From: an uncultured Clostridia bacterium | Lineage (GTDB): Bacteria > Bacillota > Clostridia > Christensenellales > Borkfalkiaceae | Reading direction: 5' to 3' | Assembly: GCA_930989535.1 (NCBI GenBank) | Contig: CAKNLK010000017.1 | Location: forward strand, 1 to 50,402 | DNA: 50,402 nt | Shown here: in pieces, positions 1 through 42,413 of the stretch | Numbering within the stretch: position 1 is the stretch's first letter | Layout: every line of letters begins with the position of its first letter | Translations under genes and position numbers: made by a program | Notes under the pieces: model-generated | Databases searched by the model: none | What the model was told of the DNA's origin: nothing | Seen by the model: the letters and a program-made list of their open reading frames with translations, nothing else

Positions 1-166
1 AGAGAAAACCCGCGGGCACGCGGCTTTGCCGCTGACCGCCTGTTTTCTCTCTTTGTGCGCTTTTTTAAAGGCTCTCTTATTATAGAGCGCGCACAAATTC
101 ACTCTTTCCGCATATGCCCTTCGGCATATTGAGGGCAAAAACGAAAATTGCGATTTCCGTTTTTGC
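1..166 (-). repeat. Structured repeat copy A, minus sense, cut by the window start
   Basis: Read on the minus strand this holds the same order of hairpins as the five other copies. P0' is a long A-rich/T-rich hairpin at 135-166 (14-base arms, loop TGCG/CGCA). P1 is TATGCC/GGCATA at 113-118 and 123-128 with a 4-base loop. P2 is TTGTGCGC at 53-60 paired with GCGCACAA at 89-96. P3 is AGAGAAAAC at 1-9 paired with GTTTTCTCT at 42-50. The terminal hairpin P4 would lie before base 1. The conserved blocks CAAT before P1 and GTGAA before P2 are present; the P2 loop is diverged. The single arm mismatch in P0' (144/157) is A-C on plus but G-T on minus, which favours minus as the RNA strand. It abuts copy B head to head through AGTTG (168-172)/CAACT (186-190). 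Confidence 0.75.
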
Positions 167-190: not shown

Positions 191-364
191 GCGCGTTCCA
201 AAATCGCTATTTTGGATTGGCGCACTCAATTTGTCGCATACCTGCGACCTCCGCGGGTGAATGCGCCGCGCGTATTTTGGTGTGCCCTTAAATTGCGCGG
301 CGCAGAGGGAAGAGCCCTCAAACTCACGAAACTTTGTTTTGTCAGCTCAAAACAAAGTTTGTGA
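191..364 (+). repeat. Structured repeat copy B, plus sense
   Basis: Hairpins in order: P0' TCCAAAAT (197-204)/ATTTTGGA (209-216), 8 perfect pairs with loop CGCT; conserved CAATTTG; P1 TCGCA (234-238)/TGCGA (243-247) with loop TACC; conserved GGGTGAA; P2 TGCGCCGCGC (262-271)/GCGCGGCGCA (295-304), 10 perfect pairs, with a loop carrying GTGCCCTTAAA; P3 GAGGG (305-309)/CCCTC (315-319); P4 324-364 with matching arms around a TCAG loop. The last base of P4 is 10 bases from the stop codon of the convergent rubrerythrin gene. The whole 1-374 gene-free stretch is taken up by copies A and B; no ORF there has a ribosome binding site or a recognisable product. Confidence 0.8.
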
Positions 365-8217: not shown

Positions 8218-8592
8218 ATGTTTTTACTGTATTCCATATTGTTCGGCGAATGTTGCTGCAACAACGGCTGGAACCGCGGCGGCCAAAACTGCGGCTGCGA
8301 GCGGAACTGGCAGAACTGCGGCTACGGGCGCGATGACCGCGGCGGTCAGAATTACGGCTGCAACAACGGCTGCGGCCGTACGCGGCAGTGCTGCGGCGAT
8401 TCGTTTGCGGCGGAAACGGAGTTTTTCAGCAACGATTGCTGCTGCAACGACCGCTGCTGCAGCGGGTTCGGGCGCCACGGCGGATTCAGCGTCTGTTGCG
8501 ACGAGGAGTATTACAACCGCCAGTATGCACTGTGCCGCTGCTGCAAGTGCAACAGCCGCAATTCCTGCGGCTGCCGCGGCAATAACCGTTAA
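8218..8592 (+). CDS. Cysteine-rich small protein, unknown function
   Basis: 124 residues with 23 cysteines, many as CC or CCC (GECCCNN, NDCCCNDRCCSG, CRCCKCN), plus many Gly, Asn, Arg and Gln. The N-terminal third repeats a loose GGQNxGC unit. There is no membrane span or recognised domain. AAGGGG sits 11 bases before the ATG and a strong terminator follows, so this is a real transcription unit rather than a chance ORF in GC-rich DNA. The composition resembles cysteine-rich coat or metal-binding proteins of spore formers. A spore-coat role would fit the sigma-K gene in this window, but that is only a guess. Confidence 0.65.
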   Translation: MFLLYSILFGECCCNNGWNRGGQNCGCERNWQNCGYGRDDRGGQNYGCNNGCGRTRQCCGDSFAAETEFFSNDCCCNDRCCSGFGRHGGFSVCCDEEYYNRQYALCRCCKCNSRNSCGCRGNNR

Positions 8593-8682: not shown

Positions 8683-8765
8683 TGGTGCGGATAACAGGAT
8701 TTGAACCTGCACGGTTGCCCACAGGATTCTAAGTCCTGCGCGTCTGCCAGTTTCGCCATATCCGC
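8683..8765 (-). tRNA. tRNA-Leu(UAG)
   Basis: On the minus strand the acceptor GCGGATA pairs with TATCCGC, followed by A and an encoded CCA (8683-8685). The anticodon arm is CAGGA-CTTAGAA-TCCTG, giving anticodon TAG, which reads CUA and other CUN leucine codons. The long variable arm and GGTTCAAATCC T arm fit a class II leucine tRNA of 83 nt. It has its own promoter and is not part of a tRNA cluster. Confidence 0.95.
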
Positions 8766-24847: not shown

Positions 24848-25078
24848 TCGCGGAAATTCGCAGGCGACAGCTCGCCGAGAATTTCGCGAGCTTAATAATA
24901 TTTGCGCGTCCGAAAACCACGCTTTTCGGAAAGCGCACCCAATTTGTCGCATACCTGCGACCTCCGCGGGTGAATGTGCGCGAGTTAATAATATGCGTGC
25001 CCTTATAAATCGCGCACAAAGGGCAGAGCCCTCAAAATCACGAAATTTTGTTTCAACAGCTTGAAATAAAATTTGTGA
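24848..25078 (+). repeat. Structured repeat copy C, most complete copy, plus sense
   Basis: Order: a 5' hairpin (24848-24889) with arms TCGCGGAAATTC.../...GAATTTCGCGA and a CAGC loop; P0' TCCGAAAA (24909-24916)/TTTTCGGA (24923-24930); CAATTTG; P1 TCGCA (24947-24951)/TGCGA (24956-24960), loop TACC; GGGTGAA; P2 TGTGCGCGA (24975-24983)/TCGCGCACA (25010-25018) with loop AATAATATGCGTGCCCTTA; P3 AGGGC (25020-25024)/GCCCT (25028-25032); AAAATCACG; P4 25038-25078, 18 pairs with a bulged G at 25042 and loop CAGC. The only non-Watson-Crick pair in P4 is 25050/25067, G-T on plus. P4 ends 5 bases from the ktrB stop codon; on the ktrB-ktrA transcript the element is antisense. Confidence 0.85.
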
Positions 25079-27345: not shown

Positions 27346-27600
27346 CGCAGATTTTGTTTTAAGCAGATAAAACAAAATCTTGCGAATTGGAGGGGAAACC
27401 CGAACGTTTTTCCCCTTACAGCGGCATTTTTAAGGGCACACATATTATTATATTGCCGCTGTTTCACCCCTTCCGTGAGCCGAGGTATCGGCAAATAGGG
27501 GTGCGCAGCGCAAAAGCGCGGTTTTGCTTGCGCGAAAGATAATTATAAAATATAAAACCGCAAATTCACGGAAAATCGTAGCGGAGCGAGATTTTCGTGA
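27346..27600 (-). repeat. Structured repeat copy D, minus sense
   Basis: Read on minus: hairpin 27566-27600 (arms of TCACGGAAAATC/GATTTTCGTGA type); P0' GCAAAA (27510-27515)/TTTTGC (27522-27527) inside GCGC/GCGC; CTATTTG; P1 CCGA (27480-27483)/TCGG (27488-27491) with loop TACC in element sense; GGGGTGAA; P2 27418-27426 with 27454-27462, 9 perfect pairs around a loop with TGTGCCCTTAAA; P3 AGGGGAAA (27391-27398)/TTTCCCCT (27409-27416); P4 27346-27384 with one bulged base. P4 starts 8 bases after the stop of the nitrilase-fold gene. It fills most of the 332-base gap before the CBS gene, whose promoter follows. Confidence 0.82.
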
Positions 27601-31915: not shown

Positions 31916-31922
31916 AAGCAAA

Positions 31923-32238
31923 CACGGAAAATCGCAGGCAACAGCTTGCCGAGATTTTCGTGAGGTGTATCTGTAACAGAGAAAGCGCGGCACATTTATA
32001 AACAGAATTTTATAAAAAATCGCGCAAGGAAAATCACATTTTTCCGCGGCGCACCCCAACTTGCAAACGCTTTTGCTTTTGCGGGAAAGGTGAGCCGAGC
32101 GAATTAAAAATTTGAGTGCCCTTAAAACTCGCGAGGCGAGGAAAACCCTGCGGATAGCCCGCAAGGCGGGCGTGCCCGCGGGGTTGTCCTGAATCACGGA
32201 AAATCGCAGGCAACAGCTTGCCGAGATTTTCGTGAGGT
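31923..32238 (+). repeat. Structured repeat copy E with identical terminal hairpins
   Basis: Bounded by two identical 44-base direct repeats, 31923-31966 and 32195-32238, each a hairpin with arms CACGGAAAATC/GATTTTCGTG and loop CAGC. Between them: P0' GGAAAA (32028-32033)/TTTTCC (32040-32045) within GCGC/GCGC; CAACTTG; P1 GCAAA (32053-32057)/TTTGC (32062-32066); P2 GCC-GA-GCGA (32094-32102)/TCGC-GA-GGC (32129-32137), in which a tandem GA/GA mismatch interrupts 7 pairs; an enlarged P3 with AGG/CCT, AACCC/GGGTT and GCGG/CCGC (32139-32190). It starts 8 bases after the ileS stop and ends 7 bases before the methyltransferase start, filling the 330-base gap. Confidence 0.85.
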
Positions 32239-41330: not shown

Positions 41331-41927
41331 CTATAAATCGCACTCGAGCTGGCGGTCGAACGGTTCCCGTTCGGCGTGCTCCCCGTCGATTTCCCGCGCA
41401 TCTGTGCAGCCCATAGCCGCATAAAATGCCTGGCTCTCCACGGCGGAGTGAGAGGAGATGTACAGCTTTTTCGCTCCCTGCGCCTTCGCCCAGGTTTTAG
41501 CGCACGCAAACAGCTTTCGCCCGATGCCGTACCCGCGAAGCTCCTCGGAAACATGGATAGAGGTCAGATCGCGGTAGTCGCCTGTTTTGCCGAGCGGTTT
41601 CGCCTCGACGGACGCAAACCCCTTCAAGGCGCCGCCGATGAACGCGCCGAACACGATACCGCCCAGCCGCACGGTCCGGCGCAGGCATTCGGCGAGGAAA
41701 GTGTAGTCCTCCTCGCTCCAATCGTCGATAAAGGGCGCTTCCGTTTCCATCCATTTCCCGCCGACGTTGCGCAGACACTTTTTCACCTCCTGCCGCCGCG
41801 TAAAGGAAGAAAACAGAGAAATATCTATCTCGCTTTCCGCGAGAGGACGGATTTCGGCGCGCGTTTCGGTTGCCCGCTGTTCGGTCGCGCGCGGTTTTGT
41901 AGGGCGGCTATTCTCCGATGATTTCAT
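41331..41927 (-). CDS. GNAT-family N-acetyltransferase
   Basis: 198 residues from the ATG at 41927 (GGAGAG about 11 bases upstream). An N-terminal charged stretch of about 35 residues precedes the domain. Acetyl-CoA loop: SEELRGYGIGRKLFACAKTWAK (about 132-153), then KLYISSHSAVESQAFYAAMGC. The C-terminus DAREIDGEHAEREPFDRQLEC resembles GNATs that act on small molecules. It lies 49 bases upstream of ispDF. Repeat copy F separates it from the RqcP gene. Confidence 0.86.
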   Translation of the reverse strand: MKSSENSRPTKPRATEQRATETRAEIRPLAESEIDISLFSSFTRRQEVKKCLRNVGGKWMETEAPFIDDWSEEDYTFLAECLRRTVRLGGIVFGAFIGGALKGFASVEAKPLGKTGDYRDLTSIHVSEELRGYGIGRKLFACAKTWAKAQGAKKLYISSHSAVESQAFYAAMGCTDAREIDGEHAEREPFDRQLECDL

Positions 41928-41984
41928 AGAGTGAAGCACTCTCCTTCGAATTTGTCGCATGTATACAATTTTAATTAGTAGTCT

Positions 41985-42171
41985 GCAAGAGCAAAAATCG
42001 CATTTTTTGCTCTTGCTCTCAATTTGCCGACACCTCGGCTTACGGAAGGGGTGAAGCGGCGGCATTATGCAATATGCGTGCTCTAAAAGATGCCGACGCA
42101 GGGGAAAGCCGCTCGGGTTTCCCCTTAAAATCACGGCTTTTTCTTTCAACAGCTTGAAAGGAAAAGCGTGA
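41985..42171 (+). repeat. Structured repeat copy F, plus sense
   Basis: P0' is the longest in the family: GCAAGAGCAAAAA (41985-41997)/TTTTTGCTCTTGC (42004-42016). CTCAATTTG; P1 CCGA (42027-42030)/TCGG (42035-42038), loop CACC; GGGGTGAA; P2 GCGGCGGCAT (42056-42065)/ATGCCGACGC (42090-42099), one G-A mismatch, loop with ATATGCGTGCTCTAAAA; P3 AGGGGAAA (42100-42107)/TTTCCCCT (42118-42125); AAAATCACG; P4 42131-42171 with loop CAGC and one T-G pair (42142/42161). P4 ends 2 bases before the stop codon of the convergent RqcP gene. With the 246-base gap it separates rqcP from the GNAT gene. A 12-base fragment AATTTGTCGCAT at 41949-41960 matches the P1 region of copies B and C. Confidence 0.85.
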
Positions 42172-42173
42172 GT

Positions 42174-42413
42174 TTATATTATTTCATAGAGTGAGGAAGC
42201 CTCTTCCTTTTTCACCGTTTCCTTGAGCGCGAGCACGCGGAACTTTAAGGAGCCGCTGGAAAATTTCAGCTCCACCTCGTCGCCCACCTTTAAGGAATAG
42301 GCGGGCTTGACGTCTTTGCCGTTCACGCTCACCTTGCCCGCCTTGCACGCCTCGCCGGCGACGGTGCGGCGCTTTAAGATGCGCGAAACTTTTAAAAACT
42401 TGTCGATTCTCAT
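42174..42413 (-). CDS. rqcP: S4-domain RNA-binding protein, RqcP-like
   Basis: 79 residues, all S4 fold: MRIDKFLKVSRILKRRTVAGEACKAGKVSVNGKDVKPAYSLKVGDEVEL. RqcP (YabO) helps RqcH and the 50S subunit add alanine tails during ribosome rescue. The ATG at 42413 has GAGGTGAT upstream; a longer frame upstream is GC-shadow. It is read first in the minus-strand run ending at radA. It has the expected size and motif, so the family call is secure; the role is inferred from homologues. Confidence 0.9.
   Translation of the reverse strand: MRIDKFLKVSRILKRRTVAGEACKAGKVSVNGKDVKPAYSLKVGDEVELKFSSGSLKFRVLALKETVKKEEASSLYEII

Follow-up and report, generated by a model that had tools for sequence, protein, structure and literature searches.

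A mosaic multi-hairpin repeat in the intergenic DNA of a Borkfalkia-like Clostridia genome looks more like a mobile element than a conventional RNA gene

Six intergenic elements found in a 50,402-nt stretch of Clostridia DNA (hereafter the window) belong to a repeat family whose features resemble those of a mobile, mosaic genome repeat more than those of a conventional RNA gene. In our judgement the family is probably a non-coding, non-autonomous mobile repeat, a mosaic of several hairpins that is recognised by its fold. A repeat of this kind, mobile, mosaic and conserved in shape, fits more of the evidence than a reading in which it possibly functions as RNA.

Anatomy, copy number and distribution of the repeat

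The window is the entire contig C17 of genome G000 (2.12 Mb in 36 contigs, 91.6% complete), a Candidatus Borkfalkia-like genome from the chicken gut. Relatives of the TrkH protein encoded beside one of the copies come from uncultured Clostridia and from Candidatus Borkfalkia (several species), and some of these records are from chicken. We used a covariance model built from 38 copies (R1), and the nearest relative searched was genome G017, about 91% identical in one housekeeping stretch. The six copies, A to F, are present where the original prediction had placed them, A and D on the minus strand and B, C, E and F on the plus strand, and both the order of the hairpins and the arms that it quoted are correct (its P1, P3 and P4 are our H2, H4 and H5). 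Since the window is a whole contig, copy A is truncated at the contig end. The features of the window are as follows.

1..166, minus strand: copy A, truncated at the contig end and facing copy B head to head (sequence, R1 match)
191..364, plus strand: copy B, ending beside the rubrerythrin stop at 375 (sequence, R1 match)
24848..25078, plus strand: copy C, an upstream hairpin and one full unit, between trkH (stop 25084) and trkA (start 24778)
24848..24889, plus strand: upstream CAGC hairpin of copy C, oriented as H5 but with different arms (sequence)
24890..24902, plus strand: AT-rich spacer ahead of H1 in copy C
24903..24937, plus strand: H1 of copy C, loop core CCACGC, inner AAAA/TTTT kept
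24936..24974, plus strand: CACCC-CAATTTG, H2 (TCGCATACCTGCGA) and GGGTGAA of copy C
24975..25018, plus strand: P2 of copy C, TGTGCGCGA/TCGCGCACA, loop containing GTGCCCTTATAAA
25020..25032, plus strand: H4 of copy C, AGGGCAGAGCCCT
25038..25078, plus strand: H5 of copy C, with foot TCAC/GTGA, bulged G, arms and loop CAGC
27346..27600, minus strand: copy D, its H5 beginning a few bases past the stop (27337) of a CN_hydrolase gene
31920..31966, plus strand: left hairpin of copy E, 98% identical to the right hairpin
32020..32149, plus strand: unit core of copy E (R1 match)
32192..32238, plus strand: right hairpin (H5) of copy E, running into GAGGTAAAAACCATG of the next gene
41921..41934, no strand assigned: target duplication of copy F, first copy, ATTTCATAGAGTGA
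41985..42171, plus strand: unit of copy F, missing from G017
42181..42194, no strand assigned: target duplication of copy F, second copy, in the last codons of an S4-domain gene

Copy C scores 131.2 bits with R1, and the genes that flank it encode TrkA and TrkH domains (Pfam TrkH). Throughout the family, a unit is about 200 nt long and its parts follow a fixed order: AT spacer, H1, H2, GTGAA, P2, H4, H5. The majority letters of the AT spacer, taken from the column composition of 150 units, are TTTAATAAT; H1 has AAAA/TTTT and a CCRCGC-like loop, H2 stands between CACCC-CAATTTG and GGGTGAA, P2 has a large loop containing GTGCCC, and H4 comes in several types, starting with AGGGC, AGGGG, AGGAA, AGGGA or AGAGA. 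H5 was detected in 84 of the 150 units, with a CAGC loop in 78 and CTGC in 6. Its foot, where paired as TCNN (82 units), is TCAC in 46, TCTC in 20, TCGC in 11, TCGT in 3, TCGG in 1 and TCTT in 1, and in these same 82 units a single unpaired purine follows the foot in 78 (63 G, 15 A), one unit having none and three being unclear. The conserved blocks had been described as unpaired, which is borne out, and they are kept across families as well; the claim that no protein gene travels with the element holds in so far as none was recognised inside the units read.

Other sequences accompany the units. A second repeat of about 150 nt, GGGGCCCCCGAAAATCGCAACGCGCG...CTTGTTGCGACGAGCGC, occurs 13 times by core pattern in the G000 stretches examined (C10:19848, C20:12653, C3:107759, C5:111647, C13:58779, C29:13373, C8:64710 and six more). 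In three cases traced by eye, at C10, C20 and C5:111533, it sits inside the P2 loop and the 3' arm of P2 resumes after it; it is either a nested element or an optional domain. At least four units (C10:19536, C10:52894, C13:16738, C13:19636) carry in their H2 region an insert of about 55 nt, CATCTGCCGTTTCCCGTAAACGGGAACCCTCGGCAG..., which is missing from G017 at C13:16638. The module GCATTGCTCGCTTCCGCCTCGGCTCCGCCGCCTTGTTCACG, with small changes, adjoins the upstream hairpin in several clusters (L008 at C7:22550, L007 at C3:35694, L188 at C30:7367), and a dispersed sequence, GAGATTTCTC...GCGCG...GTCGAAATGAC or CTCGAAATGAC, recurs near units, as in the flanks at C4:56808, C5:105827 and C15:64179.

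A blastn search with copy C gave 60 matches in G000 at E<=0.01, and R1 gave at least 151 at the same threshold, some of them partial units. The 150 listed R1 matches fall in 103 clusters (66 single, 28 double, 8 triple and 1 quadruple). Neighbouring units within 500 nt of each other form 47 pairs, 28 in the same direction and 19 head to head, with no tail-to-tail pair among them; 12 of the 19 head-to-head pairs are spaced by 20-29 nt, and in about ten of the same-direction pairs the units overlap, a truncated one passing directly into its neighbour. Contigs C6, C9, C11, C12, C16, C19 and C21 (478 kb together) bear no listed match and C1 (184 kb) bears one; the density of clusters per 100 kb is about 16 on C18 and 14 on C22. 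The G+C content is lower in some sampled stretches of the contigs without units.

At E<=0.001, R1 matches were found in 35 of 37 same-genus genomes (G000 included), the two without a match being G002 and G005, and in one of 24 further genomes. Twelve genomes of an order-wide sample of 200 match at E<=1e-4: besides G000 there are eight from two other genera of its family, one from g14 and two from g6. In G041, a genome of g6, 21 matches at E<=0.01 are full-length. Outside the genus, the loci read (8 and 13) have the core parts in the same order; their arms differ, as do most of their end hairpins, and the units of g28 and g14 are shorter. The search of the whole genome and of its relatives thus reveals a family far larger than six copies, with diverged relatives in other genera and families. 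A phage, plasmid or viral origin was rejected: copy C has no match among plasmids and phages, nor does one exact 24-base pattern among viral contigs. Among the papers listed by searches of the open-licence PMC literature, those on Borkfalkia included, none concerned this repeat.

Pairing, covariation and wobble

When 38 copies are aligned by MAFFT without regard to structure, 93.4% of the cells of 15 pairs of H1 and P2 are paired, against 71.8% in shuffles. The covariation score of these pairs is 0.486 (0.130 shuffled), a value that none of 500 shuffles attained under a null that ignores kinship, and slid registers score at most 0.087. RNAalifold, applied across genera and families to 26 chosen sequences (12 from G000, 6 from genus g26 and 8 from g6), predicted 22 pairs, 17 of them with a kept double change, H2 included; the pairing of H4 is supported by eye and by complementarity. 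Covariation beyond the shuffles and double changes kept across families show that the structure is real, and the original prediction was right that the stems are compensated though the arms vary, for H1 and P2 by the shuffles and for H2 by the changes across families.

A different coupling was found between the purine tract of H2 and the 3' strand of H4 (z=14.3, 71 units), the same tract giving z=0.4 with its own H2 partner strand (67 units). The mean complementary run between tract and H4 strand is 4.23, as compared with 3.86 in shuffles and a maximum of 4.04 among 200 of them. This is suggestive of a second, alternative fold; a few co-inherited subtypes could also produce it.

In a molecule that folds as a single strand, whether RNA or DNA, and evolves one step at a time, G.U should be tolerated more than A.C. 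We sought an excess of G.T over A.C among the 150 units, leaving out those without a stem passing score and using an aligner that gives all mismatches the same score. H5 has 4 G.T and 4 A.C among 1,550 pairs (84 units), P2 has 10 and 14 among 1,464 (128 units), and H1 has 21 and 20 among 1,810 (141 units). Together, the 4,824 pairs of the three stems comprise 4,524 Watson-Crick pairs, 35 G.T, 38 A.C and 227 other mismatches, that is, no G.T excess. As a wobble control, tRNAs were sought, and none was present in 60 loci.

These counts bear on the possibility of a structured non-coding RNA family, in which the unit would be transcribed from the AT spacer to H5, act alone or within an mRNA, and be kept for its function as RNA. 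In its favour are the compensatory changes in H1 and P2 and, between families, in H2, together with the unpaired blocks kept across families and the -10-like AT stretch directly ahead of H1, where the promoter-like score of the 150 units is 6.87 forward, 5.62 shuffled and 4.82 reverse. We consider it rather unlikely, given that G.T is not above A.C, that 39 of the 51 single units found between co-directional genes lie antisense to these genes, and that orthologous sites bear different versions. The AT stretch itself has no common -35, and a promoter was rejected in spite of the forward enrichment. An exact TAATAAT or TATAAT is found in the 30 nt ahead of the core in 52 of the 150 units and, outside the genus, in 1 of the 21 loci read. 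The original prediction had taken the covariation for the mark of selected RNA structure. This part of it is not supported as worded: besides the lack of a G.T excess, whole hairpins or their tips are exchanged in matched sets when orthologous sites are compared, sites vary in presence or absence of the element, two of them have long target duplications, and matches number about 150 in 2.1 Mb. Its statement that no named RNA class has this architecture agrees with Rfam, which gave no family: at E<=5 (5 loci) and E<=1 (7 loci) every match fell below the gathering score of the family concerned, and a gathering scan of the window returned nothing but a tRNA gene (8686-8765, minus strand).

Near-perfect Watson-Crick arms with equal counts of G.T and A.C might also arise with no selection on pairing at all, if the arms were corrected by intrastrand template switching and the compensation were a mutational by-product of palindromes. 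Such correction should erase asymmetries, yet H5 retains its purine bulge in 78 of 82 units, and loops and order are kept across families; this explanation seems to us improbable.

Movement, exchange of arms and placement at gene ends

Both flanks were sought in G017 for 68 clusters and for window copies C-F. They were found together at 37 sites, 35 of which were compared (C8:39860 and C13:19536 being left out), and G017 has an R1 unit between the flanks at 26 of these and none at 9. As most sites are shared, movement would be slow. Among the nine, three are empty in G017 (F, C3:41670 and C4:21844), one (C2:42012) has another small ORF instead of the element, and five retain hairpins or pieces (E, C5:81524, C4:46794, C10:7303 and C25:6558). 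Thirteen non-empty sites were aligned and read (C, D, E, C4:18907, C4:46794, C5:81524, C13:16638, C4:36647, C3:127113, C2:818, C10:7303, C25:6558 and C3:112620), and the remaining unit-bearing G017 sites were judged from R1 alone.

At these orthologous sites the flanks agree and the contents often differ, from which it seems that swapping of parts contributes more to the change of units than slow point substitution does. The hairpins at C4:46794 and C5:81524 lie at the same point and have quite different but matched arms, and at C4:36647 the arms differ in a matched way between similar flanks. At C2:818 the unit is nearly identical with its H5 tip exchanged, at C13:16638 there are matched changes in P2, and at C4:18907 H1 is chimeric. 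The site of copy D has two units in G017, and that of copy E one similar hairpin without a unit.

Copy F is flanked by a 14-bp duplication of a sequence that G017 has once, with one change; the S4-domain gene now has its stop (42174-42176) inside the inserted DNA and, judged by eye, is two codons shorter at this end than its counterpart in G017. The element at C4:21844 is flanked by a 21-bp repeat, single in G017, that spans an overlapping stop and start, and both genes remain whole. The third empty site, C3:41670, has no clear duplication. Element sequence aside, the 14- and 21-bp repeats, which differ in length, are the two longest flanking repeats among the 103 clusters. Random flank pairs reach at least 13 bp in 8 of 515 cases, some via element sequence; a 14-bp match alone is thus not rare, and the duplication at F counts only together with the empty site in G017. 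In the trkH-trkA spacer, read by eye in 22 genomes, elements are present in 6 and absent from 16.

If the family is a mobile repeat, as we favour, its unit would consist of five consecutive hairpins whose order is fixed, and units occur singly, in tandem or head to head. An agent encoded elsewhere would read the folded single strand, with its unpaired blocks and the H5 bulge, more than the sequence of the arms, and each copy that it inserts would be accompanied by a long staggered duplication. Whole hairpins or tips would be swapped between copies through recombination or template switching, so that arms would change as matched pairs, and copies would persist in the gaps between genes because they are located at or just outside gene ends. 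Several points tell against this: no enzyme was found among Y1_Tnp and RVT_1, the families searched; the duplications are unequal, with none clear at the third empty site; the unpaired blocks kept across families would suit an RNA too; and insertion alone would not necessarily leave most tails facing a stop codon, as they do. Only tentatively would we go on to propose a class of mobile elements defined by fold, whose arms are swapped as pairs and which a shape-reading enzyme inserts at gene ends. That members of such a class keep the unpaired blocks, the H5 purine bulge and the order, with order and core blocks extending across families of the order, is a suggestion made with similar reserve.

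A Y1 transposase was rejected as partner, since its distribution among 38 genus genomes does not follow the repeat and is not positively associated with copy number: Y1_Tnp is present in 21 of the 38, is absent from 5 of the 8 genomes with at least 55 R1 matches (G000, G015 and G017 have it), and is found in both same-genus genomes without the repeat. Nor does a reverse transcriptase track the repeat, RVT_1 being found in 4 of 38 genus genomes and giving no match in G000 (91.6% complete). The same hairpin recurs on either side in copy E and in the g26 loci L231 and L240, and long hairpin repeats across whole clusters also at C18:45977 and C25:1609. Duplication of a target hairpin was rejected as a general mode, the same hairpin lying within 130 nt upstream in just 2 of the 84 H5-bearing units of G000.

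Most of the 103 clusters (80) lie between co-directional genes, 14 between convergent and 6 between divergent ones, 3 being undecided; four were called inside a gene, the clusters as a whole being mostly intergenic. Gene calls and stop distances are those of a simple homemade gene finder. Between co-directional genes, single units have their H5 end toward the stop of the upstream gene in 39 of 51 cases (p=2e-4), and 12 face the other way. Sixty-three of the 84 H5-bearing units face a stop codon and 21 a start codon, and nine were called as overlapping a gene by 7-25 nt. The H5 foot lies at -2 to +11 of the stop in 47 of the 63, and at 5-8 (4-7 nt between) in 30. The direction of units is correlated about equally with GC skew (r=-0.51) and with gene direction (r=-0.53); an insertion orientation set by replication was rejected, the two correlations not being separable.

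The tail orientation and the spacing could reflect a 3'-end mRNA element, like stop-proximal REPs, in which H5 slows ribosomes or blocks exonucleases and selection holds the distance. When an E. coli REP lies no more than 15 nt from a stop codon, it is reported to lower translation or to stall ribosomes (PMC12306157). We find this explanation doubtful, as it has to account for the 12 of 51 single units facing the other way and the 21 of 84 H5-bearing ones facing a start codon, and it leaves H1-H4 unexplained. The distances depend on the homemade gene finder, and the insertions at C4:21844 and F lie 16 nt and 2 nt past the stop, so the spacing is not fixed at insertion.

Relation to known repeats

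To judge from the excerpts cited, REPINs, REPs and BIMEs are closest in kind to the mobile repeat that we propose. The description of REPs and REPINs as high-copy extragenic palindromes applies to it, and it resembles them in its compensatory changes, which the REPIN authors report in a DNA hairpin (PMC3116915), in its composite arrays and in the position of some copies near stops (PMC3116915, PMC12306157). REP palindromes have GTAG or CGTC at one end (PMC3733652), whereas the H5 feet here, the hairpin examined, are TC..GA, and neither motif was seen in 82 of them. Unlike a REP pair, the unit has five hairpins, about 200 nt and mostly variable arms, and unlike RAYT-associated REPs it has no Y1 transposase following it from genome to genome, the Y1 proteins not being typed as RAYT or IS200. 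The bcr repeats of the Bacillus cereus group are interspersed and intergenic, some of them MITE-like and some with conserved secondary structure (PMC3446304). Compared by description, ours is likewise an interspersed intergenic repeat of Gram-positive bacteria, and the arm replacement and cross-family spread that we see are absent from the excerpted account of bcr (PMC3446304). With MITEs it shares a non-coding, repeated nature and flanking duplications at two sites that are empty in the relative; it differs in having hairpins rather than plain terminal repeats and unequal duplications, and searches for Y1_Tnp and RVT_1 found no parent transposon.

Double-hairpin elements are also known from organelles, Allomyces being one case beside sponges and Volvox. 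According to the parts of the sponge and Volvox papers cited, these hairpin repeats of intergenic DNA are tandem or nested, as here, and the Volvox authors think them selfish (PMC2800124, PMC2670323). They are smaller, organellar and mostly of one or two hairpins, whereas the unit here has five, and sponge elements have conserved stems and differing loops, whereas here the stems vary and the loops are kept.

The family thus combines strong covariation, the usual signature of a functional RNA, with the lack of a wobble signature and with wholesale hairpin differences between orthologous sites, and this bears on the treatment of repeats in structured-RNA surveys. It is countable and changing, has hundreds of natural variants, and suits the question of whether a mobilising enzyme reads sequence or shape.

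Apart from the repeat family, the window contains at 8218-8592 (plus strand) a 124-aa reading frame without a Pfam match, which contains a tandem DNA repeat and is rich in Cys, Asn and Gly (CCCNNGWN..., NYGCNNGCG...).
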